28,371 nt of DNA from a virus: positions 1-28,371 of the IMG/VR virus record IMGVR_UViG_3300025085_003399. The stretch is one strand, 5' to 3'. Positions within the stretch are counted from its first letter, which is position 1. Each line of letters starts with the position of its first letter. The notes under the pieces were generated by a model. That model was not told where the DNA came from. It worked only from the letters and a program-made list of their open reading frames with translations, and ran no database searches. This document shows positions 3,167 through 19,380 of this stretch, piece after piece. The translations under genes and the position numbers were made by a program.

Positions 3167-3194
3167 TTGACTTTCTTCTTGCACCTGCTATAAT
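3167..3194 (+). promoter_or_regulatory. Early-type promoter for queD (TTGACT-16-TATAAT)
   Basis: TTGACT (3167-3172), 16 bp, TATAAT (3189-3194), then 8 nt to the ATG at 3203. There is no Shine-Dalgarno sequence in those 8 nt. The predicted transcript start falls within about 2 nt of the ATG. The rest of the 3041-3202 intergenic stretch shows no gene, tRNA or clear terminator. Confidence 0.7.
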
Positions 3195-5406: not shown

Positions 5407-6447
5407 ATGTCAGATAACAATAATAGCTACGAGTGGCTTGGTGATGATGAGCTTTCCGGTGAGAAAGATCAAATTGCTAGGGAAATTATGGGCAGTGAAT
5501 CCGCAGGTGGGTATGTTCCACCTTTACGAGTGTATGATAATACTGTACAGGCGGATAAGAAGTATATTTCTTCACTACCCGATTTACAAAACGGTCCATC
5601 TAGTCTAATTCAAGGATCAGCTGTACCTATTCAGCAGGTGGGTATCCATAACTTTAGATTACCACTTACGTATAAAAAGCGTAATGGTGATACAATTACA
5701 TTAGAAACCTCTGTAACCGGTAGTGTTAGCTTAGAGGCTCATAAAAAGGGTATTAACATGTCACGTGTGATGCGGTCTTTTTATGATCATAAGGATGAAG
5801 TATTTTCTATTGGTAAAATCAAAGAAGTATTAGAGTCATATAAGAATAACTTAGAGTGTTTTGACTCACGTATTATGCTTAAGATATCTTACCCTATTAA
5901 ACAGACAAGTTTGCGAAGTGGTTTAGAGGGTTATCAATACTACGATGTAGTATTTGAAGGTGATTTAACTAAAGACGGTGAATTTAAAAAGTATATTCAC
6001 TTCGATTTTGTCTATTCATCTGCATGCCCTTGTTCTTTTGAGCTTAGTGAGCACGCTGAAAAATACCGTAACCGTGCAACCGTACCTCACTCGCAACGTT
6101 CTGTAGCTCGTGTTAGTGTAAAGTTTGATGATATGCTTTGGGTAGAAGATATTCAAGAGTTATGTTTAGCTGCACTACGAACTGAGACGCAAGTTATGGT
6201 TAAGCGGGAAGATGAGCAAGCTTTTGCCGAGATGAACGGAGCATATCTTAAATTCGTAGAAGATGCAGTTCGACTTCTGTATCAGAACCTTTCAAATGAT
6301 AAGCGTATTACTGACTTTAAAGTAGTTGCATCCCATAATGAATCGCTTCATAGTCACAATGCCGTTTCTGTAATTGTGAAAGGTGTACCTGGAGGATTCA
6401 CAGCAGGAGTTGCCCGTGATGTATTTGAGTCTACTGGCTTGAGGTAA
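5407..6447 (+). CDS. folE2: GTP cyclohydrolase IB (FolE2)
   Basis: 346-aa protein of the COG1469/FolE2 family, which hydrolyses GTP to 7,8-dihydroneopterin triphosphate, the first step of both folate and 7-deazaguanine synthesis. Diagnostic motifs: VGIHNFRLPL (78-87), KGINMSR (114-120, usually KGxHMSR), ACPCSFELSEH (206-216, from the family's CPCS) and HSQRS (228-232, usually HNQRS), plus LKFVEDAVRLLYQNL near the end. QueF has the same T-fold but lacks CPCS and KGxxMSR. The first 60 or so residues are an acidic extension. FolE2 can use metals other than zinc, which may suit low-metal seawater (inference). It follows queE by 47 nt with its own promoter. Confidence 0.88.
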   Translation: MSDNNNSYEWLGDDELSGEKDQIAREIMGSESAGGYVPPLRVYDNTVQADKKYISSLPDLQNGPSSLIQGSAVPIQQVGIHNFRLPLTYKKRNGDTITLETSVTGSVSLEAHKKGINMSRVMRSFYDHKDEVFSIGKIKEVLESYKNNLECFDSRIMLKISYPIKQTSLRSGLEGYQYYDVVFEGDLTKDGEFKKYIHFDFVYSSACPCSFELSEHAEKYRNRATVPHSQRSVARVSVKFDDMLWVEDIQELCLAALRTETQVMVKREDEQAFAEMNGAYLKFVEDAVRLLYQNLSNDKRITDFKVVASHNESLHSHNAVSVIVKGVPGGFTAGVARDVFESTGLR

Positions 6448-6461
6448 CGCCAAAGCTGACT

Positions 6462-6836
6462 ATGACAACAGAAAAAACATGGATGGAAGAGGCTCGTCAG
6501 ATTGCAGCGCAATGCTGGTGCGACGAGGAAACGCAAGATCGTGAAATGGATGTTGTCCTCGCGGAAGCAGTGGCGAAACGGATCGCGGCTTGGATGGAAA
6601 CCGCCGCACAGAACCAGCGCAACACGGACTATTATCGTGGGTTGCTTGAGCGATGCGGGAAGGCAATCGGGGATCGCGCCTATACTCAGGACGATGGAGG
6701 GAAAACTGAGGATGTTCTGTGCGCCAAGATTCCTGAGATCGTGGAAACCGATTACGTCACGGTGGACAGTGAACGGCTCGCATTGATGTCCAGCGACTTG
6801 TTATCTAATTTTTATCATGAACATAGAAAGTCTTGA
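6462..6836 (+). CDS. GC-rich foreign gene, uncharacterised phage-type protein
   Basis: 124-aa protein encoded in DNA of about 55-60% G+C (by counting sample lines), against roughly 37% in a flanking line. Codon use (GCG, CGG, ACG, GCC) also differs from all neighbours. The stretch NTDYYRGLLERCGKAIGDRA, then YTQDDGGKTEDVLCAKIPEIV, resembles a small uncharacterised protein common in siphophages of Proteobacteria. The last residues (SNFYHEHRKS) fall where composition turns AT-rich again, and they overlap the next start by 20 nt, so the original C-terminus may have been altered. No T4-type promoter or strong ribosome site is seen. Function unknown. Confidence 0.6.
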   Translation: MTTEKTWMEEARQIAAQCWCDEETQDREMDVVLAEAVAKRIAAWMETAAQNQRNTDYYRGLLERCGKAIGDRAYTQDDGGKTEDVLCAKIPEIVETDYVTVDSERLALMSSDLLSNFYHEHRKS

Positions 6837-7035
6837 AATCACCGAAAAAGGCGTGGTTGTTATCTACCGCGAGCCATCCAACCAAATACTTCTCTGCATC
6901 CCTCCACGACCAGCACCGGACAGAGTGTGGAGGGAGGTTTGGGAAATTCGTGATGGCAAACTGGAAAAGACCTCTTCGGAAGAGGGGCGGCATACCCCAG
7001 CATCATCAGTAGCGGAATCTATTTCTTTTGGATAA
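6817..7035 (+). CDS. Small hypothetical protein in the GC-rich island
   Basis: 72-aa reading frame (MNIESLEITEKGVVVIYREP) overlapping the preceding gene by 20 nt in another frame. It has two beta-strand-like segments, a Pro-rich middle (IPPRPAPDRVWREVWEIRDG) and a Ser-rich end. Composition is GC-rich as in the gene before it, so both probably arrived together. I do not recognise a family. Coding is plausible from the conserved-looking N-terminal half but not certain. Confidence 0.45.
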   Translation: MNIESLEITEKGVVVIYREPSNQILLCIPPRPAPDRVWREVWEIRDGKLEKTSSEEGRHTPASSVAESISFG

Positions 7036-7057
7036 CATTAATTGTTATTAACATACC

Positions 7058-7091
7058 AAGCCTCTCTTTTGCTTAGGTGAGAGAGAGGCTT
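7058..7091 (+). terminator. Hairpin (possible terminator) between GC-rich island and HNH gene
   Basis: AAGCCTCTCT (7058-7067) pairs perfectly with AGAGAGGCTT (7082-7091) around a 14-nt loop. No long T run follows, so factor-independent termination is uncertain. The loop holds the TTGCTT hexamer of the HNH gene's putative promoter. The rest of 7036-7101 holds only a weak 6-bp inverted repeat (7032-7037/7043-7048). Confidence 0.5.
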
Positions 7092-7101: not shown

Positions 7102-7701
7102 ATGAAAGATCATACTCTTATTCTCAACAAATACTATTTTCCAATTAATGTGGATGACTATAAGCGTGTATTTACAAACATAGCAACAGGTTCACAACTC
7201 CCATTAGATATACACTACGAGGTAAATGAAGATGGGACTATTAACTTTGAAAATATTAACTTTTGGAATGTTATTAAGTCTATCGATGCCTGGATGGAGC
7301 TTCCCATTAGACCGTATGATAATTTTATTCATACTGTTAACGGTCCTATACGGCTTCCTACTGTAGTTATATGTTCTGCTTATAAAGGTATAATGCACAA
7401 GAAGGCTAAGTTTCCAACTAAGAAAAATATATGGGAGCGTGACAAATATACATGTGTATACACAGGCAAAAAATTACAAAAAACGGAACTTAGCGTCGAT
7501 CATGTATTTCCAAGGAGTAAAGGCGGGAAGGACACATGGGATAATTTGGTTACGTGTGATAAGATATTAAACTCTAAAAAAAGTAATAAGTTACTTTCTG
7601 AAACTAAATTAAAATTACGGTATAAACCTTTTAAGCCTGACGATGGTTATAAATTTGAAATATACAGAGAGGAGTGGCATTCCTTTCTTGCCAATTTTTA
7701 A
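7102..7701 (+). CDS. HNH endonuclease
   Basis: 199-aa protein. An N-terminal domain (MKDHTLILNKYYFPINVDDY...) resembles that of the common LNxxYxPLxV-type HNH proteins. The C-terminal HNH core is WERDKYTCVYTGKKLQKTEL, SVDHVFPRSKGGKDTWDNLV, TCDKILNSKKSNK (about residues 112-165), with His in DHV, the central Asn in WDNL and the last Asn in LNSKK. The two CxxC pairs that hold a structural zinc in relatives are each reduced to one Cys (CVYT, CDKIL). It could be a homing-type or a packaging/recombination nuclease; it follows a foreign island, but that is only suggestive. Confidence 0.85.
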   Translation: MKDHTLILNKYYFPINVDDYKRVFTNIATGSQLPLDIHYEVNEDGTINFENINFWNVIKSIDAWMELPIRPYDNFIHTVNGPIRLPTVVICSAYKGIMHKKAKFPTKKNIWERDKYTCVYTGKKLQKTELSVDHVFPRSKGGKDTWDNLVTCDKILNSKKSNKLLSETKLKLRYKPFKPDDGYKFEIYREEWHSFLANF

Positions 7702-7719: not shown

Positions 7720-8487
7720 ATGAGAATAGCTTTTAGTGGTACTGCTAATTCAGGTAAAACAACTCTCTTGAAGAGTTTTCTCTATACGTGGAGTAATTTT
7801 TCAACTCCAGAAAAAACTTATAGAGACATGCTTGTTGAAAAGGAACTTGACCATTCATCTTCAACAACAACCGAAACACAAAGTCAGGTTATGGACTTTA
7901 TGGTTGATCAATTAATTGAGAATAGTAAGGATGACTGTGTAGTATATGATAGATGTCCATTAGATTCTGTAGCTTATACGTTATGGAGTAATGATAAAAA
8001 TAAAGAAGGCTTTACAAAAGAGTTTGTTACAGAACAAATTACACTATGTAAAGAATCATTAAGAAACTTAGATATAATTTTCCTGTGTAAGTTTGACGAA
8101 AAGGAAGGTGTAAAGGAAGACGGATCAAGAGAAGCAGATCTACAATATATCAAAGAGGTAGATAATATTTTTGATTCTTTATATCAACAGTATATGCAAA
8201 ATCCGCAAGCTGATGTTTTCTACCCTAAAGATGACTCACCAGCAGTTATATTATTACCTAACGGTACGCAAGAACGTATTGATCTACTTGCTGAGTATAT
8301 TACACCAGAAGGGGGAATGTATGGTGATGAACACTCTATTTTAAATCCTGATAATCTTGATGAATTAGAAGCTCTTGTTAAACAGCAACAATCAGCTCTA
8401 GATAAAGAAACAAAGGAAAAGGAACTATTTGCAAAATTTGGAATAAAAGATGATGATAGGGGTAGCAATTATAACCTGCAACCGTGA
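7720..8487 (+). CDS. P-loop ATPase/kinase-like protein (AAA_28 type)
   Basis: 255-aa protein with Walker A GTANSGKT (7-14), a DRCPLDSVAY segment resembling the DR(S/C)xxD signature of nucleoside-kinase-like and NadR/AAA_28 proteins, and NLDIIFLCKF as the Walker B strand. Residues 190-255 are a charged, Gln/Glu-rich tail predicted helical (DELEALVKQQQSALDKETKE). Substrate unknown: deoxynucleoside kinase-like or a regulatory ATPase are both possible. The 3' end overlaps the first glycosyltransferase gene by 38 nt, which ties it transcriptionally to the carbohydrate cluster. Confidence 0.7.
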   Translation: MRIAFSGTANSGKTTLLKSFLYTWSNFSTPEKTYRDMLVEKELDHSSSTTTETQSQVMDFMVDQLIENSKDDCVVYDRCPLDSVAYTLWSNDKNKEGFTKEFVTEQITLCKESLRNLDIIFLCKFDEKEGVKEDGSREADLQYIKEVDNIFDSLYQQYMQNPQADVFYPKDDSPAVILLPNGTQERIDLLAEYITPEGGMYGDEHSILNPDNLDELEALVKQQQSALDKETKEKELFAKFGIKDDDRGSNYNLQP

Positions 8488-9238
8488 AGACATGTATCGG
8501 GTTTGTATGGACTCGATACATGCTGATTGGTATGATGAACTCGTAACAGTTAATGACGGTGAACCGGTAAGGTGTACCAACGGGGAGTATATTGAAACTG
8601 GTGGTGTTGGGGTAGGTGTGGCTAAGAACACAGCTATGCAACATTTATTAGATAAGGGATGTGATTATATCATACTAGTTGAGGATGATATGCGCTTTAA
8701 GAAAGATATATTTAAAACATATATTACAGCTTCGAAAATTACCGGTATACAGCACTTTATGTTTGGTTATCACGGACCTGCTAACAAGGCTGGTATTAGT
8801 GGTGGTAAGCCTACACCACGTAAAGTTGTAGATTACGGTGATATAAAAATAGCTCTCAATCAACATTGTGTCGGTGCAGTTACCTTTTATACGAGAGAGT
8901 GCCTAGAAGATATTGGATTACATGATGAGAACTATACTAACGCATTTGAACATGTTGACCATTCTTATAGATTAGCTAAAGCAGGCTACAGTACCCCGTA
9001 TTGGTGGTGGTCTGATATAGCTAATAGTTTAGACTATGTAGAGGAGCAAGCATGTTCTGAAAATAACTCTTCTATAAGACCTCGCAGTGATTGGCAGTCG
9101 AATATCGAAAAGTCGGCAATATACTTCTTACATAGACATAATGTCCACCCTGTACAAGTGCCTGATGTACCTATCAGTGAAGTAATAGAACATCTTAAAA
9201 AATTAAAAAATGAAAAAAATAAGTTTACTAGTACCTAG
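8450..9238 (+). CDS. Glycosyltransferase, GT-A (family 2-like)
   Basis: 262 aa, starting MMIGVAIITCNREDMYRVCM (the second ATG at 8453 is equally possible). Features of a GT-A fold: the N-terminal nucleotide-binding strand with TCNR, a mid-domain VEDDMRF (DxD-like metal site, near residue 78) and FEHVDHSYR (acceptor/catalytic region as in GT2). It would add a sugar from a nucleotide donor to a glycan; substrate unknown. A Trp-rich patch (YWWWSD) follows. First of seven consecutive glycosyltransferase-like genes, overlapping its neighbours on both sides. Confidence 0.75.
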   Translation: MMIGVAIITCNREDMYRVCMDSIHADWYDELVTVNDGEPVRCTNGEYIETGGVGVGVAKNTAMQHLLDKGCDYIILVEDDMRFKKDIFKTYITASKITGIQHFMFGYHGPANKAGISGGKPTPRKVVDYGDIKIALNQHCVGAVTFYTRECLEDIGLHDENYTNAFEHVDHSYRLAKAGYSTPYWWWSDIANSLDYVEEQACSENNSSIRPRSDWQSNIEKSAIYFLHRHNVHPVQVPDVPISEVIEHLKKLKNEKNKFTST

Positions 9239-9971
9239 TCGCGAACGCTTAAATTTAAAACTTACTCTTATTAGTTCTATCATTACTTCTGTTAATGATA
9301 TTAATAATGTAGAGTTAATATTTGGAGTAGATGAAGATGATCCAGCAAGAGAAACAACTTATAAAATTGCTAATAGTATCCCATTCGTAAAGGTTGTAGA
9401 TATAAAAAATGATGGTAAGTTTATAGGTATAAATAAAATTTGGAACGAATTATATCCGCACGCTGAAGGGGATATTTTAGGTTACGTTGGTGATGATATG
9501 ATCTTTAAGACAAAGGATTGGGACGTAAAAATATTAGATGAATTTAACGAGGATAATTTACCAACAGACAAAATTAAATTAGTACATTGCTATGACGGGT
9601 TTAGAAAAAAAGATGAAATTTGTGTAAACGCGTTTATACATAAAAAATACACAGATGTTGTTGGTTATTTGTGTAGAGAGGAATTCTTAATTAATTGGTC
9701 TGATCAATGGCTTTATCAGACCTTTAAAGCTGTGGATAGGGTTAAGTGGCGTGAAGATATTTATATTCACCATAATCATTGGGTTTTCGGCAATAGGCAG
9801 AAAGATGAGGTTGCTGATAGAATGCTATCTGATAATAAGGATACTATTAGTGATCAACTATGGTTTGATTTAGCTCAGGAGAGAATTGATGATGTTAAGA
9901 AGATCGCAGATTATATTAATGTCGAACCGAATTGGGATGTAGTTGATACCGAGATTGGAGTAAAGGTATGA
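9210..9971 (+). CDS. Glycosyltransferase-like protein, GT-A
   Basis: 253 aa. MKKISLLVPSRERLNLKLTL is a GT2-like start, FGVDEDDP (near 40) and VGDDMIF (near 93) are acidic metal/nucleotide-site candidates, and FKAVDRVKWREDIYIHHNHW lies where the acceptor-binding His-rich loop would be. Donor and acceptor unknown. It overlaps the upstream gene by 29 nt and the downstream gene by ATGA. Confidence 0.65.
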   Translation: MKKISLLVPSRERLNLKLTLISSIITSVNDINNVELIFGVDEDDPARETTYKIANSIPFVKVVDIKNDGKFIGINKIWNELYPHAEGDILGYVGDDMIFKTKDWDVKILDEFNEDNLPTDKIKLVHCYDGFRKKDEICVNAFIHKKYTDVVGYLCREEFLINWSDQWLYQTFKAVDRVKWREDIYIHHNHWVFGNRQKDEVADRMLSDNKDTISDQLWFDLAQERIDDVKKIADYINVEPNWDVVDTEIGVKV

Positions 9972-10816
9972 AGGTAAACAATAAAGATTTAATACATAAA
10001 CATGATTTTTTTCAGAATGTTTTAGCTAAACTACATAAACTAATTAAGGATGATAATGTTATTTTTACTTTAGAGAACTTATCCGCGGAGCATACAGATC
10101 GTGGAAAAATAGAAGTAGATAAATCAAAGTTTAATGTACTATTAGGTATGTGGGATGAATATGATACAAAGTATCATAGAGAATTGATAGATAAATATGA
10201 TATAATATTCAATCAATATATTACTAAAGAAGAAGAAGAACTTTATGATAATTTATTCTCTCTACCACTCGGTTATAACGGTAATATAATTATAGAAAAT
10301 GAGCATGTTCAAGATATTAAAAAAATAACCGATAGATCGATAGATGTATTTTTTGCAGGGCATATGTCATCACAGAATAGGTATAATAGTATGATTAAAA
10401 ATATCGAATTCTTAACAAAGAGCGATAGCCGTAAAAAATATAATTTTGATTTTAATATAACAAGAGGGTTTATGCAGGGGTTTAAAGGTCCGCAATATTA
10501 TGATAAACTTTATAACAGTAAGATAGCCTTCTGTCCTCCTGGTAATATAAGTGCAGAGACATATAGATGGTATGAAGCGATGATGTGTGGTTGCGTTATT
10601 GTTTGTCCTAAACTACCAGAAACAGAAATATATAATGACTTACCAGTAATGCAGGTTACTAATTTTGAAACAGACGCGTCAAAGGTAGTCTTAGAGCTAC
10701 TTAATGATAAAACCCGTCTACAAGAATTACAGCAAGAAAATATAGAATACTGGAGTAAGCATTATGATCAGGAACTAGTCGCTGCATATATAACTTCTAA
10801 AATTAAAAGAAAATGA
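9968..10816 (+). CDS. Exostosin/GT-B-like glycosyltransferase
   Basis: 282 aa. The C-terminal half carries a GT-B signature: DVFFAGHMSS, YNSKIAFCPPGNISAETYRW, YEAMMCGCVIVCP, the E-x7-G/C nucleotide-sugar contact found in exostosin-like and family 1/4-like enzymes. The N-terminal half (to 110) has NVLLGMWDEYD and DIIFNQY strands. Donor unknown. ATGA overlap with both neighbours, so strict translational coupling. Confidence 0.65.
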   Translation: MKVNNKDLIHKHDFFQNVLAKLHKLIKDDNVIFTLENLSAEHTDRGKIEVDKSKFNVLLGMWDEYDTKYHRELIDKYDIIFNQYITKEEEELYDNLFSLPLGYNGNIIIENEHVQDIKKITDRSIDVFFAGHMSSQNRYNSMIKNIEFLTKSDSRKKYNFDFNITRGFMQGFKGPQYYDKLYNSKIAFCPPGNISAETYRWYEAMMCGCVIVCPKLPETEIYNDLPVMQVTNFETDASKVVLELLNDKTRLQELQQENIEYWSKHYDQELVAAYITSKIKRK

Positions 10817-11673
10817 TAGTACAAATTACTAGAACCAAAAATGAAGCATTCTTAATTAAGGAGATGTTACCGTTATGGTCAAAATATGCGGATGGCTTTG
10901 TTTTTTACGATGATGGGTCGACTGACGATACTGTTGATTTTTTAAAAGCTAATAAAGATAAGTATAATATATTAGAAATCATCGAAGGTAATAAAAAGGA
11001 AAATTACATTAAGGAGCTTAAGATGGAGACTGACGAAAGGCAGCCACTATATAACGCTGCATACAAGTACAGTAATAAAATTATATGTTGTGATTCGGAT
11101 GAATATCTAGATGGTAGCTTTACTAAGCAAGATTTAGAAAACTTACTAGAGAATAATCCGGATACAGTTTTTAATCTTCAATGGATACAGTATACCAGTC
11201 AAAACAATGTAAGAGTTGACGGACCGTGGGGAAATAATTTTAAAGTAAGAGCTGGTTCATATACATCACAAGGTGACTTCGGAACAGCTCAAATGCATTC
11301 TTTACATCTACCACCTGCATCTAAATCTAAAGCAATTAACCCGTCGCAATTATTCATAGCACACTTACAATGGTTGAGTAAGAGATGGGTGGGTGTTAAG
11401 CAATATTTTTGGAAAATTAACGACTATGTTAACAGGGAGATTCATGGTGCAGAAGTTATTGAGGCAAGCGCGTATGATGTATCAGTAAATAATTTTAATT
11501 GGAAATATTCCCAATACCCTATCAAGCTAAAAGTAGATGAGAAGATTTACGAAAGTCAGGATATGAAAACAAATTATAAGCTAGAGTATATTAAGAAATA
11601 TACAAAAGAATTGAACATACCTAACTTAGGTGATTGGGGAATGGGTATTCATGAGTTTTGCTTAAAAGAATAG
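10813..11673 (+). CDS. Glycosyltransferase family 2-like protein
   Basis: 286 aa. MIVQITRTKNEAFLIKEMLP, then YDDGSTDDTVDFLK (33-46), is the classic GT2 N-terminal nucleotide-binding motif with DDGSTDDT. CCDSDEYL (near 92) is the DxD metal site. The middle (HSLHLPPASKSKAI, HLQWLSKRWVGVKQYFW) resembles the long insert of GT2/GT92-like enzymes acting on glycoproteins or lipid-linked glycans. The next gene starts 38 nt downstream from its own promoter. Confidence 0.75.
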   Translation: MIVQITRTKNEAFLIKEMLPLWSKYADGFVFYDDGSTDDTVDFLKANKDKYNILEIIEGNKKENYIKELKMETDERQPLYNAAYKYSNKIICCDSDEYLDGSFTKQDLENLLENNPDTVFNLQWIQYTSQNNVRVDGPWGNNFKVRAGSYTSQGDFGTAQMHSLHLPPASKSKAINPSQLFIAHLQWLSKRWVGVKQYFWKINDYVNREIHGAEVIEASAYDVSVNNFNWKYSQYPIKLKVDEKIYESQDMKTNYKLEYIKKYTKELNIPNLGDWGMGIHEFCLKE

Positions 11674-11701
11674 TTGCATCATACTCTTAACATATTATAA
11701 T
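11674..11701 (+). promoter_or_regulatory. Internal early-type promoter (TTGCAT-16-TATAAT)
   Basis: TTGCAT (11674-11679), 16 bp, TATAAT (11696-11701), 10 nt to the ATG at 11712. A two-codon mini-frame (ATG GTA TAA, 11704) and a second TATAAT (11708-11713) lie between. It divides the carbohydrate cluster into two transcription units. Confidence 0.6.
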
Positions 11702-11711
11702 TTATGGTATA

Positions 11712-12377
11712 ATGTCTCTTAATTTAGATAATGTTACAATTATTTGTATAGATGGAGTTAATCCTAATGTAGGGGTAAAGGCTCTTAAATATAGTATGCA
11801 AGAAATTAATTTTGCTAAAAGCATTATTCTTTCTCATATAAAGCCAGACATTATTCCTGATGGTGTGGAGTATATAAAGATACCCGAGTTAACGCATCAC
11901 ACATATAGCTCTTTTTGTTTACATGAGTTATATAAATACTTTACAACAGATTTTGTCTTAATAATACATGACGACGGATTTGTAATAAATCCACATAAGT
12001 GGACTAATGAATTTTTAAATTATGATTACATAGGAGCTCCTTGGCGTGGAGAAGGAAATAATAGGGTTGGTAACGGGGGCTTTAGTTTGCGTAGTAAAAA
12101 ATTAGTAAATTTATGTCGTGCAATACAGTGGGGTGGAGGTCATGAAGATGGTGAAATTTGTATAACCCAAAGACAACACTTTGTAAATAATGGTTGCAAG
12201 TTTGCTCCAACAGAATTAGCTGCTCTGTTTTCATTAGAATCGAAGTTACATGATGTTGAGTATAATCTAGAAAATAGCTTCGGATTTCACGGTAAAGGTG
12301 TTGTTGAAACTGTTCACTATGGTGAAGGTCAGCAATTTAAAGATAAATTAAAACTAAGAGATGCAGTAATATTATGA
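11712..12377 (+). CDS. DUF5672-type glycosyltransferase-like protein
   Basis: 221 aa. IPELTHHTYSSFCLHELYKY, then FVLIIHDDGFVINPHKWTNE, YDYIGAPW and RVGNGGFSLRSKKL are the recognisable elements of DUF5672, a GT-A-fold family found in glycan gene clusters of bacteria, phages and giant viruses. HDDG is the likely metal site. Function within a specific glycan is unknown. It is first after the internal promoter and overlaps the next gene by ATGA. Confidence 0.75.
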   Translation: MSLNLDNVTIICIDGVNPNVGVKALKYSMQEINFAKSIILSHIKPDIIPDGVEYIKIPELTHHTYSSFCLHELYKYFTTDFVLIIHDDGFVINPHKWTNEFLNYDYIGAPWRGEGNNRVGNGGFSLRSKKLVNLCRAIQWGGGHEDGEICITQRQHFVNNGCKFAPTELAALFSLESKLHDVEYNLENSFGFHGKGVVETVHYGEGQQFKDKLKLRDAVIL

Positions 12378-13168
12378 AAGTTGTAGATACATTTACGTTT
12401 TTCAATGAACTAGAACTATTAGAGGTTAGGTTAAACACCTTAAATGACCACGTCGATAAATTCGTTTTAGTAGAATCAACAAGAAGTCATCAAAACAAAC
12501 CTAAACCGTTATTCTATCAAGAGAATAAACACCTATTTAAAAAGTTTAATTCTAAAATAGAACATATTATAGTAGATGATTTTCCTGAACATACTTATCA
12601 TTCTTTTGAGCATCATCAAAGGGACTGTATAGAACGTGGATTAGGACATTGCGAGGATGACGATATAGTTTTTATATCTGATATTGATGAAATATGGGAC
12701 CCTGCAAAGATAGATCTGAATATAGACGGTGAAAAAATCTATAAATGGGGATCTTTACTAGCATACTTTTACTTAAATTTAATAGCGCAACCTAACATGT
12801 GGTGGCAGCCTCTATTTTTAAAATATAGTCTTTTAAAGAGTCTTAGAGCTAAAAATTTTGAAATAACACGCCATATTCTTAGAAACGAGAGTAGGTCGCC
12901 AGAAATAATTTTCGAACATTTACCTGATTTGAGAGGTTGGCACTTTTCCTATATGGGAGATGTAGAGTATAAACTACAAAACTTTTTACATAGTGAACAT
13001 AGAGATAAAAAGAAATCCTATATACAACAATGTATAAAAGATAGAGTTAATCCCTTTCATCCGAGCGTAAAGATGCATAAATTAAAAGATGTCGGATTAG
13101 ATAATTACTTACCTAGCTATATATCTAATAATATTAGTAAATACGAGCATTTAATTTTGAATGAGTAA
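12374..13168 (+). CDS. Glycosyltransferase family 17 (MGAT3-like)
   Basis: 264 aa. VDTFTFFNELELLEVRLNTL, FVLVESTRSHQNKPKPLFY and DDIVFISDIDEIWDP are characteristic of GT17, whose founding member is the eukaryotic beta-1,4-N-acetylglucosaminyltransferase III. DIDEI is the DxD site. GT17 members occur in bacterial and viral glycan clusters; they probably transfer GlcNAc-type sugars, but the donor here is unproven. ATGA overlap upstream; its stop overlaps the next start by one base (TAATG). Confidence 0.85.
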   Translation: MKVVDTFTFFNELELLEVRLNTLNDHVDKFVLVESTRSHQNKPKPLFYQENKHLFKKFNSKIEHIIVDDFPEHTYHSFEHHQRDCIERGLGHCEDDDIVFISDIDEIWDPAKIDLNIDGEKIYKWGSLLAYFYLNLIAQPNMWWQPLFLKYSLLKSLRAKNFEITRHILRNESRSPEIIFEHLPDLRGWHFSYMGDVEYKLQNFLHSEHRDKKKSYIQQCIKDRVNPFHPSVKMHKLKDVGLDNYLPSYISNNISKYEHLILNE

Positions 13169-13932
13169 TGGTTGATGTTGAATTAATAGGTGGTTTAGGT
13201 AATAATATGTTCCAATATGCTCTAGGGCGTATAATTGCAGATAGTAAGGGCTATAATTTAGATACTACAAATTTAGATCAATTAGGTCAGTTTTTTAAAA
13301 ATGTTAAAAATATAACAGATAGAAAAAGCATAACCTCTCCAGTTTTACAAATAGGTTACGGTACCGAAGTAGGTCCACAAACTTATATAGAGCAAGAAGT
13401 TGCAGATTTTGAAGGTAACATAAAAGTTGAGGGATTTTTTCAAAGGCAAGAATTTTATAATGCACATAGAGATAAGCTATTAAAATGGTTTAAGACTGAT
13501 ATTAAACTTGAGAAAACACCAGGAAAAAATGATTTAGTATTACATGTAAGACTTGGTGATTATATGGGACTAGGTTGGCAATTAGATACAGATATCTTCA
13601 TTGATATATTAAAGAGAGAAAAATATAATAAGTATTTTATTGTAACAGATGATCCTGATAATACAATTATTGATGATATACTACAAGCAGTTGATGGAGG
13701 TGAAGTAGTGAGTACGGATAAAATATCCGATTTCGAATTTTTATGTAGAAGTAAACTTTTAGTGCTATCTCACTCATCATTTAGTTGGTGGGCAGCTTTT
13801 TTAGGTAATGCGAGAAAGGTAATAGTACCTTATAACAGTAATAAGGGATGGTGGAAGTTAACACCTTCACAAAATGACATTGATTTAATCGAAGACACGT
13901 CTAAATATTTTCGTTATGTTTATGACTCTTGA
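13168..13932 (+). CDS. Alpha-1,2-fucosyltransferase-like (GT11)
   Basis: 254 aa. IGGLGNNMFQYALGR is the N-terminal signature of GT11, LHVRLGDYM corresponds to the HxRRGDY donor-binding motif (with Leu for one Arg), and LSHSSFSWWAAFLGN is the C-terminal GT11 motif. The family moves fucose from GDP-fucose to a galactose or related acceptor; a different 6-deoxy sugar donor is possible given the neighbouring pathway. It overlaps the methyltransferase gene by 17 nt. Confidence 0.88.
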   Translation: MVDVELIGGLGNNMFQYALGRIIADSKGYNLDTTNLDQLGQFFKNVKNITDRKSITSPVLQIGYGTEVGPQTYIEQEVADFEGNIKVEGFFQRQEFYNAHRDKLLKWFKTDIKLEKTPGKNDLVLHVRLGDYMGLGWQLDTDIFIDILKREKYNKYFIVTDDPDNTIIDDILQAVDGGEVVSTDKISDFEFLCRSKLLVLSHSSFSWWAAFLGNARKVIVPYNSNKGWWKLTPSQNDIDLIEDTSKYFRYVYDS

Positions 13933-14542
13933 CCTGCTTAATCAAAAATTTGATCTCAATATAAAAGGAATTATTCATTGTGGTGCCCATCATGCTGAAG
14001 AAAGTGACGCTTATGAAAGGCATGGTATTAGTAAGGTTGTGTGGGTTGAAGGTAACTCAGAGTTAGTTCCGATAGTGGAGAGTAAGGTCGGTAATTTGCC
14101 AGAAAATAAAGTTTTTAATTATCTAGTTTATGATGAAGATGGTAAAGAGCTTGAATTTAAAATAACAAATAATACACAATCTTCTTCTGTACTAGAATTT
14201 GGTACACATAAGCGTTATTACCCCGGTGTTGATTTTATTAAATCGGAGGTTAAGAAGGCTTATACACTAAAATATATTATCGAAAAGGAAGATCTTAAAA
14301 TGGAAGATTATAATATGCTCAATTTAGATCTTCAAGGAGTCGAACTTAGAGCATTAAAAAGTATGGGTGACTATATCGATAACATTGATTATGTATATAC
14401 AGAAATTAACGATGATATGGTTTATGAAGGTAACGATCTCTTAGTAGATTTAGAAGAGTACTTATCTTCGAAAGGCTTACATAGAGCTGGTATACATTTA
14501 TTGAGTGAAAAATGGGGTGATGCTTTTTATGTTAGACGGTAG
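13916..14542 (+). CDS. FkbM-family SAM-dependent methyltransferase
   Basis: 208 aa. IIHCGAHHAEESDAYERHG (the GAxxG-like SAM loop of FkbM), VVWVEGNSELVPIV, LNLDLQGVELRALKSM and YVYTEIN match FkbM methyltransferases, which O-methylate sugars. In this context it probably methylates a sugar of the glycan made by the cluster. The first residues MFMTL leave two start choices: ATG at 13916 or at 13922. Confidence 0.85.
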   Translation: MFMTLDLLNQKFDLNIKGIIHCGAHHAEESDAYERHGISKVVWVEGNSELVPIVESKVGNLPENKVFNYLVYDEDGKELEFKITNNTQSSSVLEFGTHKRYYPGVDFIKSEVKKAYTLKYIIEKEDLKMEDYNMLNLDLQGVELRALKSMGDYIDNIDYVYTEINDDMVYEGNDLLVDLEEYLSSKGLHRAGIHLLSEKWGDAFYVRR

Positions 14543-14547
14543 GTATA

Positions 14548-15408
14548 ATGAATAGTGAGAAAAATAAATTATCTGTTTTTGGATCGAAGGGGTTTATAGG
14601 TAGTCGATTTACTGACTTATATCCTGATGATGTAATTGAAATAGACAGGGAAGACGACAAAGCTAAATCGAGTAATATTTTATATTTTATTAGTACAGTA
14701 GATAATTACAATATACATAACGATCTACATATTGATATAGAAACTAACTTAACAAAGTTAATGAAAGTTATCGAAGCTAATAAAAAGGAAGATCTCGTTT
14801 TTAATTTTATTAGCTCTTGGTTTGTTTATGGTCAAAATCCAAATATACCGTTTTCTGAAGATACTACGGAGTGTAACCCTACAGGATTTTACTCTATTAC
14901 TAAAAGATGCGCTGAAGAAATGTTAATATGCTTTTGCAATACATTTAACATACGCTATAGAATTTTTAGATTGGCGAATGTGCTCGGACCTGGTGATGGT
15001 AAGATTTCTAGAAAGAAAAATGCGTTACAATTTCTTATGAATGAAATGGTAAACGATCGCGACCTGCATTTATACTACGGTGGTGAAGTTTTAAGAGATT
15101 ATATTCACGTTGATGATGTATGTGATGCTTTAAAGCTTTGTACAGATACTGCACCCACAAATCAAATTATTAACATCGGTGCCGGTCGACCGTATAAGTT
15201 TTTAGATATTATAGAGAAGGGTATGGAGGTATCAAAATCTAAATCGAGGGTTATTAATATTGAGCCAACTAAATTTCATAATATAGTTCAAACAAAACAT
15301 TCATATTTAGATATTAAAAAGTTGAAATCTTACGGGTTTAAGCCAAAATATACAATAGACGATATAGTTACTAAATTAATTAATCACTATAAAAATATTA
15401 AAAAATGA
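14548..15408 (+). CDS. NAD-dependent sugar epimerase/dehydratase (extended SDR)
   Basis: 286 aa. N-terminal Rossmann motif VFGSKGFIGS (GxxGxxG), SSWFVYG in the place of the catalytic Ser region, FYSITKRCAEE as the YxxxK catalytic pair, and DYIHVDDVCDAL typical of extended SDRs acting on nucleotide sugars. It is probably an epimerase or reductase on a keto-deoxy sugar. The stop overlaps the next start (ATGA) of the RfbH-like dehydrase, suggesting action in the same pathway. Confidence 0.82.
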   Translation: MNSEKNKLSVFGSKGFIGSRFTDLYPDDVIEIDREDDKAKSSNILYFISTVDNYNIHNDLHIDIETNLTKLMKVIEANKKEDLVFNFISSWFVYGQNPNIPFSEDTTECNPTGFYSITKRCAEEMLICFCNTFNIRYRIFRLANVLGPGDGKISRKKNALQFLMNEMVNDRDLHLYYGGEVLRDYIHVDDVCDALKLCTDTAPTNQIINIGAGRPYKFLDIIEKGMEVSKSKSRVINIEPTKFHNIVQTKHSYLDIKKLKSYGFKPKYTIDDIVTKLINHYKNIKK

Positions 15409-16559
15409 AAGCTACAAAAAAAATATGGTACGCTCCTAATAAGTTTGAATCTTACGGTGAGGAAGAAATTAAATCAGTTGAAGAATGCTTGCGTGATGGT
15501 TGGATTGCTGGCTTCGGTAAACGGAGTAAGCAATTTGAAGAAGAAGTATCAGAATTTTTCGGAAAACAATATGGTGTCTTTGTAAATTCAGGTTCATCAG
15601 CTTGTTTACTTGCGTTAGCTTCTATTGACCTACCTAAAGGTAGCGAAGTTATTACACCCGCTTGTACATTTTCGACTACATTGGCTCCTATTATTCAACT
15701 CGGACTTACACCAGTGTTTGTAGATGTTAATCTTACCTCATATGTGGTTGATGTGCAAGATGTAGTTAATGCTGTAACAGCTAAAACCAAAGCATTAATG
15801 ATTCCTAACTTGATAGGCAACAAGCCTGATTGGAAATCTATAAAAGAAGAGTTAGTTAAGATAGGAAGAGATGATATTATTTTAATTGAGGATTCTGCTG
15901 ATACAGTAACTCATACATCAGAGACAGATATCTCTACAACAAGTTTTTACGCAAGTCATGTTATTACAGCTGGAGGTACTGGTGGTATGGTAATGTTTAA
16001 TAATAAGAAATATGAACAACGATGCTTACAGTATAGAGATTGGGGTAGAATAGGTGATAATAGTGAGGATATGTCAGATCGCTTTGCACATGAAGTAGAT
16101 GGTATTGCATATGATTATAAATTCTTATATGGTGTACTTGGATACAATATGAAATGTTCAGAGATGAACGCAGCTTTCGGTCTAGTGCAAGTCAAAAAAT
16201 TAGATACGTTTTTACGCAAGAGACGTGAGAACATTAAGCGTTATTTAGATAATCTAAAGGACGTTTCAGAGCTTATTTTACCTGACGATACTATCGAACC
16301 TAACTGGTTAGCAATTCCTCTACAGACGGAGAATAGATATGAGCTTCTTAATTTCTTAGAAGAAAACAATATACAAACACGCGTTACTTTTGCTGGTAAT
16401 GTTACACGTCACCCTGTATATAGGGAATATTTCCAAGAATTTGCTAATTCAGATACTATTATGGAGAATGGATTTCTTTTAGGAGCGCATCATGGAATGT
16501 CTGTTGAGGATGTCGATTACGTGTGCGATAAAATTAAAGAATTTTTTAATAATGAATAA
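15405..16559 (+). CDS. rfbH: RfbH/ColD-type PLP-dependent sugar 3-dehydrase lacking Fe-S ligands
   Basis: 384 aa, DegT/DnrJ/EryC1 fold (NSGSSACLLAL at 61-71, PACTFSTTLAPI, IEDSAD with Asp163). The residue that should be the PLP-binding Lys is His185 (SFYASHVITAGGTGGMV), as in the dehydrase branch (RfbH/E1, ColD), which removes the 3-OH of a 4-keto-6-deoxy sugar instead of transaminating it. RDWGR, YDYKFLYGVLGYNMKCSEMN and TRVTFAGNVTRHPVY follow the RfbH pattern. The Cys-rich loop that binds [2Fe-2S] in RfbH (after RDWGR) is here IGDNSEDMSD with no Cys. It therefore probably makes a 3,6-dideoxy or 3-deoxy keto sugar by a cluster-free route. It overlaps both neighbours. Confidence 0.85.
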   Translation: MKATKKIWYAPNKFESYGEEEIKSVEECLRDGWIAGFGKRSKQFEEEVSEFFGKQYGVFVNSGSSACLLALASIDLPKGSEVITPACTFSTTLAPIIQLGLTPVFVDVNLTSYVVDVQDVVNAVTAKTKALMIPNLIGNKPDWKSIKEELVKIGRDDIILIEDSADTVTHTSETDISTTSFYASHVITAGGTGGMVMFNNKKYEQRCLQYRDWGRIGDNSEDMSDRFAHEVDGIAYDYKFLYGVLGYNMKCSEMNAAFGLVQVKKLDTFLRKRRENIKRYLDNLKDVSELILPDDTIEPNWLAIPLQTENRYELLNFLEENNIQTRVTFAGNVTRHPVYREYFQEFANSDTIMENGFLLGAHHGMSVEDVDYVCDKIKEFFNNE

Positions 16560-17502
16560 AGTTGTTTATATTACAGGATGTTTAGGGTTTATAGGCTCTT
16601 ACGTTACACGGTCTTGTCTCAAGAAGGGCTGGCATGTACGTGGCGTTGATAAGATTACATATGCCTCAAATACTATTTTACTTGACGAGTTTGAAGGTTA
16701 TGATAATTTCGTATTTACTCATACAGATATTAATGACTTAAAATTTCTATATGACTGTGATTACATTATTAATGTAGCTGCAGAAACGCATGTAGGTAAT
16801 AGTATTGCCAATAGTGATGACTTTGTACACTCAAATATAAACGGGGTACATAATCTACTAGAGCTTTTAAAAAATCATAGAGGTGAGCATAGTCATAAGC
16901 CTGTATTCTTACATTTTAGTACAGATGAGGTTTATGGTGATATTGCTTCCGGAGCTCATACCGAGACTGACCTGCTTCATCCTAGTAATCCATACTCTGC
17001 AACTAAAGCTGCTGCAGATCAATTAGTACTAGCATGGGCTAGAACTTACGACCTACCTTATAACATTATTAGACCTACAAATAACTATGGAATAGGTCAA
17101 TATGTTGAAAAGCTTATTCCTAAGTCTTGCAAGTTCTTAGGATTGGGTAAAAAGATACCTATCCATAATGATGGCACTCCTATTAGAAATTGGTTACATG
17201 CTCAAGATACAGCCAATGCTATAATCACTATTATCGAGTCTGGTGAACAAAATGAAATTTACAATATCGCAGGAGATTTCGAACAGCAGAATATAACCAC
17301 AATACAGAAAATTATTAAGGAGTATCACGGAGATTCAGATGTATCATCATACATAGATAATACTTATAGTAGAAAAGGTCAAGATGTAAGATATGCTCTT
17401 GATGATTCTAAACTAAGAAAGTTAGGATGGTTACCAGAGAAAAAATTCGATCAAGAACTTCCTGATATTATTAGTTATTATAAGGGTAAGTTTATATGGT
17501 GA
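16552..17502 (+). CDS. rmlB: dTDP-glucose 4,6-dehydratase-like (RmlB family)
   Basis: 316 aa, start taken at MNKVVYITG (16552, overlapping the previous stop by 8 nt); in-frame codons further upstream lie inside the dehydrase gene. Rossmann TGCLGFIGS, AAETHVGNSI, FSTDEVYGD, YSATKAAADQ (YxxxK) and NNYGIGQYVEKLIPK, then IRNWLHAQDTANAI, are strong RmlB features. It would oxidise, dehydrate and reduce an NDP-hexose to the 4-keto-6-deoxy sugar, the substrate of the adjacent 3-dehydrase. A CDP- rather than dTDP-glucose preference cannot be excluded. Confidence 0.88.
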   Translation: MNKVVYITGCLGFIGSYVTRSCLKKGWHVRGVDKITYASNTILLDEFEGYDNFVFTHTDINDLKFLYDCDYIINVAAETHVGNSIANSDDFVHSNINGVHNLLELLKNHRGEHSHKPVFLHFSTDEVYGDIASGAHTETDLLHPSNPYSATKAAADQLVLAWARTYDLPYNIIRPTNNYGIGQYVEKLIPKSCKFLGLGKKIPIHNDGTPIRNWLHAQDTANAIITIIESGEQNEIYNIAGDFEQQNITTIQKIIKEYHGDSDVSSYIDNTYSRKGQDVRYALDDSKLRKLGWLPEKKFDQELPDIISYYKGKFIW

Positions 17503-18128
17503 AGGATCAGTACAGATTAAAAGAAAGAATTTTAAATATTGCTTATAAAAATAAACTTAGTCATTTAAGTAGCTATTTTACAAGCGTATCTATTATAGAC
17601 GACATATATAGCAGTATGGCTGAGGATGATATTTTTATCTTATCTTCCGGACATGCTGCACTCGCCCTTTATGCTTGTCTTGAGAAACATAAAGGTGTTG
17701 ATGCAGAACAATTGTTTTTAAAACATGGAGGGCATCCTCATAGAGATGAAGAAAACTTTTTGCACTGTTCAACAGGCAGTCTTGGATTAGGTATTACCAT
17801 AGCAATAGGTCGCGCGATTGCTAATCCCGAGAGGAAGGTTTATGTACTAATAAGTGATGGTGAGTGTGCAGAAGGTAGTGTTTGGGAGTCGCTTAAGACA
17901 ATAGTTGAGCAAAATATTAACAATATTGAGGTGCATGTTAATGTAAATGGATATGCCGCATACGATACTATTGATACTGAGTATCTTTCCAAAAGACTTC
18001 GAGCATTCTTACCTAATATTAAAATACATAAAACTAATTCGGAAGAGTTTTCATTTCTACATGATTTAAATGCTCACTATCATATAATGAGCGAAGACGA
18101 TTATTATAAAGCTTTATCGGAATTATGA
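17496..18128 (+). CDS. Transketolase-like protein, TPP-binding half
   Basis: 210 aa corresponding to the N-terminal (PP) domain of transketolase: SSGHAALALYACLE, KHGGHPHRD, STGSLGLGITIAIGRAIA (92-109) and the TPP/metal motif ISDGECAEGSVWE...N (from 119, with NVNGYAA as the distal Asn). The partner domain is encoded by the next gene (ATGA overlap), so the enzyme is a two-subunit transketolase. Such enzymes move a two-carbon ketol unit. Set next to a sugar dehydrase and reductases, a role in making a branched or extended deoxy sugar is plausible (inference). Confidence 0.82.
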   Translation: MVKDQYRLKERILNIAYKNKLSHLSSYFTSVSIIDDIYSSMAEDDIFILSSGHAALALYACLEKHKGVDAEQLFLKHGGHPHRDEENFLHCSTGSLGLGITIAIGRAIANPERKVYVLISDGECAEGSVWESLKTIVEQNINNIEVHVNVNGYAAYDTIDTEYLSKRLRAFLPNIKIHKTNSEEFSFLHDLNAHYHIMSEDDYYKALSEL

Positions 18129-18601
18129 GAAAGGATCTAGCAAAACTATTATTAGAGGAAATGCGTGTTAATGAAGATGTATATCTTATTACCGGCGATT
18201 TAGGTTATGGTCTTTGGGATGATATACGTGATACCTTCCCTGATAGATTTTTTAATGTAGGGTCGTCAGAAATGGTTATGATGGGCACTGCTATAGGGTT
18301 AGCTATGGAAGGTAAAGTACCTTTTGTTTACTCTATCACACCTTTTGCCTTATATAGACCTTATGAGATGATTCGTAATTATGTCAATCACGAAAAAATA
18401 CCGGTTAATATATTAGGCGGAGGTCGCGACCGTGATTACGGTTACTTAGGATTCTCACACTGGGCTGAGGATGATAAAGAGTTAATGAAACCGTTTAAAA
18501 ATATTAGCACCTACCATCCTACAAATATAAAAGAACTTACAAGCACCTTTAAAGTAATTATAAAAAATCAGTCTCCATCATACTTAAATTTAAAAAAATG
18601 A
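18125..18601 (+). CDS. Transketolase-like protein, pyrimidine-binding half
   Basis: 158 aa equivalent to the central (Pyr) domain: LITGDLGYG, FFNVGSSEMVMMGTAIGLAM with Glu49 as the TPP-activating Glu, and PFVYSITPFALYRPYEMIRN (cofactor-contact loop). The usual C-terminal third domain is absent, as in other split transketolase-like pairs. Must act with the 17496 product, since each half carries only part of the active site. ATGA overlaps on both sides. Confidence 0.8.
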   Translation: MRKDLAKLLLEEMRVNEDVYLITGDLGYGLWDDIRDTFPDRFFNVGSSEMVMMGTAIGLAMEGKVPFVYSITPFALYRPYEMIRNYVNHEKIPVNILGGGRDRDYGYLGFSHWAEDDKELMKPFKNISTYHPTNIKELTSTFKVIIKNQSPSYLNLKK

Positions 18602-19380
18602 ATATACTAATTACAGGAGGTAATGGGTATATTGCAACTTCGTTAAATAGAGCTTTTAGTGAGTATAAAATAACTACTATAACGAGAAAAGATTTTGACC
18701 TAACAAATAAAGAATTAACAGACAGATGGTTTAAAGGTAAGCATTTTGATGTAGTAGTTCATACAGCAACAGTTGGAGGTAGTAGATTAAAACAAGACAC
18801 GGGTGATGTGGTTTATAACAACTTAAAGATGGTATATAACTTGCTCGATAATAAGCAGCACTTTGATAAATTTATACAATTTGGATCAGGTGCAGAGCAA
18901 ACACAACCCAATCTACCATACGGGTTAAGTAAGAGAGTAATAAACGATGTTATAAAACAATATCCTAACTTTTATAACTTAAGAATATATGGTGTATTTG
19001 ATAGTAACGAGCTCAGCACCAGATTTATTAGAAGTAGTATAACTAATTATATTAACCATAAGCCAATTATAATTTATAAAGATAAATTTATGGATTTTAT
19101 CTTTATGAAGGATTTAGCTAATATAGTTAAAAGTTATATCGCAGGTACATTAGATTATGGTGAGTATAACTGTGTATATAAAAATAAATATAAACTTTCA
19201 GATATAGCCGGCTTAATTAATAATTTGTCCGATCACGAAGTTGATATTAAAATAGAGAATGAGGGATTAGATACAGCCTATATTGGTGACTATCTAAAAA
19301 GTGAGAGTACTATCGTAGGTATAGAAAAAGGCATTCAGGATACATTTTACAGCTTGAAAAGTAAAATCGAACATCTATAA
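18598..19380 (+). CDS. NAD(P)-dependent sugar reductase/epimerase (extended SDR)
   Basis: 260 aa. LITGGNGYIATSLNRAF is the Rossmann motif (GxxGxI), VVVHTAT and FIQFGSGAEQTQPNLPYGLS precede YGLSKRV (YxxxK), and FIFMKDLANIV matches the substrate-domain strand. It resembles GDP-fucose synthetase or sugar 4-reductases and may reduce the ketone left by the dehydrase/transketolase steps. Last gene of the cluster; the promoter of the next gene lies in its 3' end. Confidence 0.75.
   Translation: MNILITGGNGYIATSLNRAFSEYKITTITRKDFDLTNKELTDRWFKGKHFDVVVHTATVGGSRLKQDTGDVVYNNLKMVYNLLDNKQHFDKFIQFGSGAEQTQPNLPYGLSKRVINDVIKQYPNFYNLRIYGVFDSNELSTRFIRSSITNYINHKPIIIYKDKFMDFIFMKDLANIVKSYIAGTLDYGEYNCVYKNKYKLSDIAGLINNLSDHEVDIKIENEGLDTAYIGDYLKSESTIVGIEKGIQDTFYSLKSKIEHL

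Follow-up and report, generated by a model that had tools for sequence, protein, structure and literature searches.

The island behind folE2 and its empty site

The window, i.e., the whole stretch of DNA that was analysed, is an entire IMG/VR virus record (IMGVR_UViG_3300025085_003399) of 28,371 bases. It encodes folE2, a protein matching the tail sheath stabilizer family, QueD- and QueE-like proteins and PhoH, and we infer that the record is that of a T4-like phage. Directly behind folE2 lie the following features, where a slash marks the joined position.

6448..7035, plus strand: GC-rich foreign island, recognized by its composition and by its absence from nine of the ten relatives aligned on both sides
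6443..6448, plus strand: left junction GGTAA/C, whose AAC is common to the right junction and to the left junction of the related contig L030
6448..6461, plus strand: proposed 5' arm of a putative attC-like site, CGCCAAAGCTGACT, based on likeness to a site of the phage record G008
6462..6836, plus strand: gene 1 (P0001, 124 aa), a phage protein family of unknown function with DNA matches in L001 and L002
6788..6806, plus strand: proposed 3' arm and end box of the putative site, GTCCAGCGACTTGTTATCT, based on likeness to the same G008 site
6817..7035, plus strand: gene 2 (P0002, 72 aa), of no known family, with a single other copy found, in L008
7030..7036, plus strand: right end box GGATAAC, with six bases complementary to GTTATC at 6800 and also to GTTATC at 6859

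The G+C content of the island (588 bp) was 51.0%, versus 34.2% in the rest of the window. The richest 582-bp stretch in the window started at 6431 (51.7%), and the best of the stretches starting before 5860 or after 7040 reached 40.9%. The original prediction had put the island at 55-60% G+C, which is true of its peak (up to 0.62 in 120-bp steps) but not of the whole. The very different codon use described there was borne out by the GC3 values, which were 0.55 and 0.44 for the two island genes versus 0.18-0.37 for the 38 other listed ORFs. The two genes expected in the island exist as overlapping ORFs (6462-6836 and 6817-7035).

In a scan for folE2, the best 80 of 197 loci were kept, and the junction was printed for 19 of those 80. 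For ten relatives among these best 80, both flanks of the site could be aligned in the right order. Nine of them (L031-L037, L039, and L040, of which L034 and L035 resemble the same phage) were without any insert, so that the junction lacking the island, which it had been proposed to seek in relatives, does exist; the tenth was L030. In L031-L036, the folE2 end TTGAGATAACATACTTGTTATTAACATACC runs straight into a hairpin-like repeat, and the window reads at the same place TTGAGGTAA/C, the island, and GGATAA/CATTAATTG. The island-free relatives thereby fixed both edges to the base, the left one (6447/6448) as ..TTGAGGTAA/CGCCAAAG and the right one (7035/7036) as ..TTTTGGATAA/CATTAATTG, and the sharpness claimed for them was confirmed. 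A pattern scan for the folE2 end followed by TAACG returned only the L030 contig and two others; those two read the same, and in one of them the G+C content behind the stop was 35.5%.

The hairpin-like inverted repeat (about 7058-7091) is also present in L031-L036, six relatives that lack the island, and it is therefore backbone. The HNH gene (7102-7701), which starts 66 bases past the island, was found in L034-L036 and was missing at the same place in L031-L033. The hairpin and the HNH gene had been counted as island cargo, but both are backbone outside the island and occur in island-free relatives. The presence of the HNH gene is thus a second insertion/deletion polymorphism within 70 bases of the island.

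Intergenic HNH homing endonuclease loci are a known category, and the present locus resembles them in having an HNH gene beside a variable position. The neighbouring endonuclease could have cut nearby so that repair captured foreign DNA, or the island could have spread with the HNH gene by co-conversion. The closeness of the gene to the island, its variable presence among the relatives and the matches of its protein to homing-type HNH domains agree with such an origin. Nevertheless, L034-L036 carry the gene and no island; the two do not come and go together but vary independently, in which the locus differs from the known category. Moreover, random capture of DNA leaves the leader and box structure described below unexplained. 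We thus regard an origin through the HNH endonuclease as quite unlikely.

Copies of the island genes and a second insert at the same base

Gene 1 DNA was 88.0% identical in L001 (299 bases) and 86.5% identical in L002 (310 bases), two GC-rich phage records, and was the sole match of these loci to the window in that DNA search. Relatives of gene 1 were encoded at 12 viral loci and on one bacterial MAG contig; the GTDB scan with gene 1 relatives returned one locus, a Paraglaciecola MAG contig (62%). The resemblance to siphophage genes suggested by the original prediction found no support for either gene: P0001 and P0002 gave no match by tblastn in 50,697 GenBank phage records and no PHROGs family up to E 0.1. 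In Pfam, gene 2 was without a match and gene 1 had only two matches, both below the cut-off. Accessory functions in infection are likely for small phage genes of this kind.

Further pieces of the island were found in sample 3300025108. A 55-kb contig stops inside gene 1 (97.8% identity over 135 bases), and an 8.9-kb contig starts inside gene 2 (98.5% over 133 bases) and departs from the window sequence at the end of the island. The 55-kb record is a different phage, in which only two window proteins besides gene 1 found a match, at 34-37%. The 34 bases opening gene 2 in the window precede gene 1 in the 55-kb record, and the parts have therefore been reshuffled. In L004 (5053-5086, equal to L007 14495-14528), these 34 bases are fused to gene 1, with the leader MNIE and not MTTE. 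The end box of gene 2 reads GCAGAAC in L008, versus GGATAAC in the window.

The empty site in relatives, the foreign composition and the near-identical pieces elsewhere support a recent foreign acquisition of the island from a pool of unrelated GC-rich phages. In this respect the earlier interpretation stood, whereas its siphophage origin and its placing of the hairpin and the HNH gene did not.

Over 3.3 kb, the contig L030 shared 95% identity with the window; it carried a different insert of 317 bp (53.9% G+C) at the same TAA/C. Compared with the empty relatives, both islands are joined within TAAC (G/TT on the bottom strand), the exact joined base being placed to within AAC. The end boxes of the L030 insert, GTTCGCAA and TTGCGAAC, were complementary at 8 of 8 bases, which was reached by one of the four GTTs in the insert. 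The end box of the window gave a weak 6-base match (GTTATC/GATAAC) that was reached by two of seven GTTs. The 96-residue protein of L030 had 15 matching phage records, and every match started at query residue 25; the query used for the 15 loci started at the box, so the start of homology is readable only from the 96-residue search. Twelve of the 15 loci were inspected (left out were L180, which is the contig of L030 itself, and L184 and L186, whose scores equal those of L183 and L185), and in none of the twelve did the gene stand in an array. Boxes of 7-8 bases flanked the gene relative in L185, L188, and L189, about the chance rate, L185 and L189 having the same ORF.

The finding of L030 bears on two other explanations. 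An assembly chimera at 6448 and 7035 had been raised as a caution; the sharp composition edges would fit it, and both contigs of 3300025108 stop within the island, in the way that repeats interrupt an assembly. However, L030 is a separate contig with proper flanks whose insert is joined at the identical base, and another assembly contains island sequence at 98% identity, which makes an artefact very unlikely. A small non-autonomous transposon with a target duplication of 3-4 bases (TAAC) would account for the TAAC on both sides in the window, and the two ends look weakly alike by eye (CCAAA). Nevertheless, L030 has TAAC on the left but GAAC on the right, so the duplication is not constant, and no terminal repeat common to the two inserts was seen by eye. 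A transposon or MITE is therefore extremely improbable.

Other differences from L030 were observed. At 3174-3188 the window is without about 760 bases that are present in L030 (3012-3771), and L034 and L036 are also longer there; this looks like a deletion in the lineage of the window. At 591-840, L030 has an alanine-rich coding stretch of 65% G+C that is unmatched in the window's version of the gene. In a scan of 85 sources, nine GC-rich stretches (eight in relatives, one in the window) were inspected as further islands and rejected; they resembled proline-, glycine- or alanine-rich coding repeats.

Arrays of small units in phage records

A relative of gene 1 was located within a row of small genes in the GC-rich phage record G008 (41 kb); a similar arrangement, though less clear, was seen in G002 (18 kb). 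The array units in these records begin with GTT and several further bases and end with the complement and AAC, and hairpin sites lie between them. G002 is a phage by its DNA polymerase and terminase matches; G008 was taken as a phage because of two things, a DnaB-like helicase match and its IMG/VR membership, and two other large proteins gave no match.

Consecutive units with at least 7 complementary end-box bases were counted as a chain. G008 had 8 such units in succession, their boxes being 7-8 bases long and the gene 1 relative being unit 2, and the longest chain in 60 shuffles was 3. The chain of 3 in G002 was no longer than those in shuffles, and the gene 1 unit there had 9 complementary bases. 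Among the other records with gene 1 relatives, no chain above 2 was present in G001, G003, L020, L023, L024, L026, L028, and L029. Among 127 loci (some of them overlapping) from virus records and one MAG, the two from the G008 array, L021 and L022, reached 8, and the rest had at most 4. The box test recovered most of the chromosomal integrons tried, and 9 of 20 fetched regions gave chains of 4 to 35 (shuffles up to 5); of the controls, L162 was not above its own shuffles and L174 was above them by one. The phage TJE1 gave 3 units (shuffles up to 5) and P12002L gave 6 (shuffles up to 7). Therefore, the box count is convincing for G008 and not for G002. Like the chromosomal integron arrays (20 regions, Gammaproteobacteria), the phage arrays have complementary end boxes in successive units; unlike them, their boxes are mostly GTTC and not GTTRRRY, and a start codon and leader stand inside several sites.

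Two kinds of repeats were observed in these records. A 133-base element occurs three times in L022 (5291-5423, 6037-6169, and 8990-9122) and places a start codon and leader before different genes. In G001 (L011 4656-9430), which carries gene 1, a GC-rich repeat of 47-48 bases (..ACCCCGTGGCC..CTCACGGGGTG..) occurs nine times, at spacings of 335 to 1260 bases.

The start of the L030 island, comprising UTR, start codon and leader, matched the G008 site in L022 at 9392-9509 (nhmmer E 2.4e-7), and the alignment score was 105, while the best of 500 shuffles scored 43. The leaders of these homologous sites read TPTTPKAEQVGQHCLV and TPTPSAKQVGQHRLV. The homology ends at CTTG/TT and unlike gene bodies follow; thus, one site with its leader heads two unrelated gene bodies. 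Beyond CTTG/TT, G008 encodes a protein with a DNA_methylase match from residue 26 (E 9e-4, below the Pfam cut-off), and this methylase-like unit, the ninth, has the end boxes GTTCTGC and GCAGAAC.

For the window, the comparison was made with site 0 of G008, which had been picked by eye beforehand and which, of the nine G008 sites tried, was the sole one standing out for both ends. Two of 2000 shuffles scored as well as window 6441-6480, and none of 2000 as well as 6771-6815. A search by nhmmer with the two site ends of the window (including 6444-6475) found no G008 or other phage site.

The attC model, folding and recombinases

A covariance model of canonical attC (R1) was trained on 23 attC sites located next to gammaproteobacterial integron integrases; a variant rule had given 36 sites near chromosomal integrases, of which the 23 were used. 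A home-made first attC finder was too noisy on its own. Since the rule demanded an unpaired base in the 5' arm, the arm polarity of the canonical sites is not an independent result. In the control, 10 of 11 integron loci yielded R1 matches, 62 in total up to E 1 and counting the training sites, and R1 found three sites of 27.7-31.8 bits in TJE1, in gene direction. The model is not fully sensitive, because it missed P12002L, where Qi et al. report working sites.

Over 27 sources (the window, L030 and phage records), R1 returned three matches, of 18.2 and 15.3 bits in G008 and 16.3 bits in G004. With the filters off, the best match in the window was 9.1 bits (E 0.07 for 901 bases), short of a canonical attC, and it falls at 7030-7050 on the right junction and a backbone palindrome. 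R1 gave 3.0 bits at window 6772-6802 and, filters off, 0.9 bits at the L030 site and at best 10.0 in G002. By the R1 test, neither island holds a canonical attC. In the array stretch of G008, the filters-off scores were 15.3, 14.7, and 10.2 bits antisense to the genes, and the sense strand reached 7.1. Furthermore, the antisense strand of G008 site 0 aligned weakly (nhmmer E 0.06) with one of the chromosomal attC sites that R1 had detected (L167 519-617). Three G008/G002 sites folded on the sense strand into attC-like hairpins of -9.1 to -9.7 kcal/mol (z -2.3, -1.9, and -1.0), and the folding in antisense was slightly poorer (z -1.7, -0.4, and -0.8). If the sites are inverted, the gene strand is expected to be cut at AA/C, which is where the two islands are joined.

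No integron integrase (TIGR02249) was detected in 19 virus records, most of them fragments, and no Phage_integrase domain (PF00589) in 19 virus records of an overlapping set. The 41-kb record of G008 has neither, as would be expected of a cluster of attC sites lacking a nearby integrase (CALIN). The 28-kb record of the window, possibly a fragment, has neither as well and thus shows no complete integron.

Proposed entry as a gene-cassette unit

Two different GC-rich inserts stand behind folE2 in an AT-rich phage lineage, at the same base TAA/C. We favour the explanation that the island, as foreign DNA from a phage, came in as an integron-type gene-cassette unit, a reading that we hold to be somewhat more probable than its negation. 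Each unit would be a circle carrying an attC-like site, and an integron-type tyrosine recombinase, supplied in trans by the host or a co-infecting element, would join it at a lone position outside any array, like the attG sites described in bacteria. The sites would be inverted relative to the genes, with the start codon and leader inside, and the unit would therefore bring its own translation start. The case is good for L030, and it carries over to the window because the insertion position is shared. In its favour are the empty site with two fillings at one base, the homology of the L030 start to a G008 site, the complementary boxes of L030 and G008, and the antisense direction of the best R1 hits in the G008 array. 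Against it, gene 1 would occupy the loop, about 330 bases, of the site proposed in the window, whose box match is shared by a second GTT and whose ends found no G008 site by nhmmer; furthermore, R1 scores neither island nor G002, the end box of gene 2 is different in L008, most records with gene 1 relatives show no convincing chain, no relative of the L030 gene was found in an array at the 12 loci inspected, and the virus records searched gave no integron integrase.

The main rival to entry as a cassette is simple phage mosaicism, i.e., co-infection by a GC-rich phage with illegitimate or short-homology recombination and no site-specific recombinase, where the shared AAC would be microhomology and shared leaders would let homologous recombination swap gene bodies. 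AAC alone is common to the junctions, gene 1 stands in G001 without end-box units around it, and its leaders differ (MTTE versus MNIE); moreover, the virus records searched held no recombinase gene, and the attC model failed on both islands. However, two different inserts at exactly one base, and the exact stop of the L030/G008 homology at CTTG/TT, speak against mosaicism, and it does not predict that end boxes are complementary, as they are over 8 bases in L030 and along the G008 array. We consider mosaicism possible but doubtful.

According to Qi et al. 2023 (PMC9892861), phages contain 17 CALINs, and 5 of 6 tested phage sites work with IntI1. Arrays of the G008 type are like these in that small phage genes are split by attC-like hairpin sites with no integrase beside them. 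Compared with the phage CALINs as described there, the window island differs in being alone, no array having been found in its phage, and in having an empty-site relative and a second filling. In addition, no G008 site scores above 18.2 bits and the better-scoring sites lie opposite to the gene direction, whereas the TJE1 sites of Qi et al. match in gene direction. Bacterial genomes are also described as receiving integron cassettes at attG sites (Loot et al. 2024, as cited in PMC12901181 and PMC12444791). The likeness to that process, as described there, is that a cassette ends up at a position other than attC or attI; the difference is that the target here is a phage genome and that a recombinase is presumed to take part.

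Phage cassette clusters are thus already known, and a lone non-array insertion with inverted start-codon sites would be new. What the present analysis adds is the lone insertion in an unrelated phage with an empty site and a second filling at the same base, together with sites that hold a start codon and appear inverted. In the literature searched, where coverage of subscription papers was poor, no report of inverted attC sites with embedded start codons was found. Phage genomes are mosaic, yet the clean arrival of single genes between genes is mostly unexplained, and for the present locus there are relatives with an empty site, two different fillings joined at the same base, and an array of the donor type in which the same site and leader precede another gene. 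If the joining is integrase-driven, lytic phages would gain genes by a testable site-specific route, and integron cassettes would supply phages as well as bacteria. We tentatively propose, as a view that may well prove wrong, that phages share a cassette economy of their own: inverted attC-like sites with start codon and leader would make self-starting units. GC-rich phages would exchange these units with one another, and single units would end up in unrelated AT-rich T4-like phages, where an attG-like hotspot behind folE2 would receive them, with the recombinase in trans.

Elsewhere in the window, a long gene run (8450-19380) contains genes that by eye resemble sugar, glycosyltransferase and epimerase genes. 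Two transketolase-like pieces lie within it at 17496-18601, of which the analysis covered 17496-18128.
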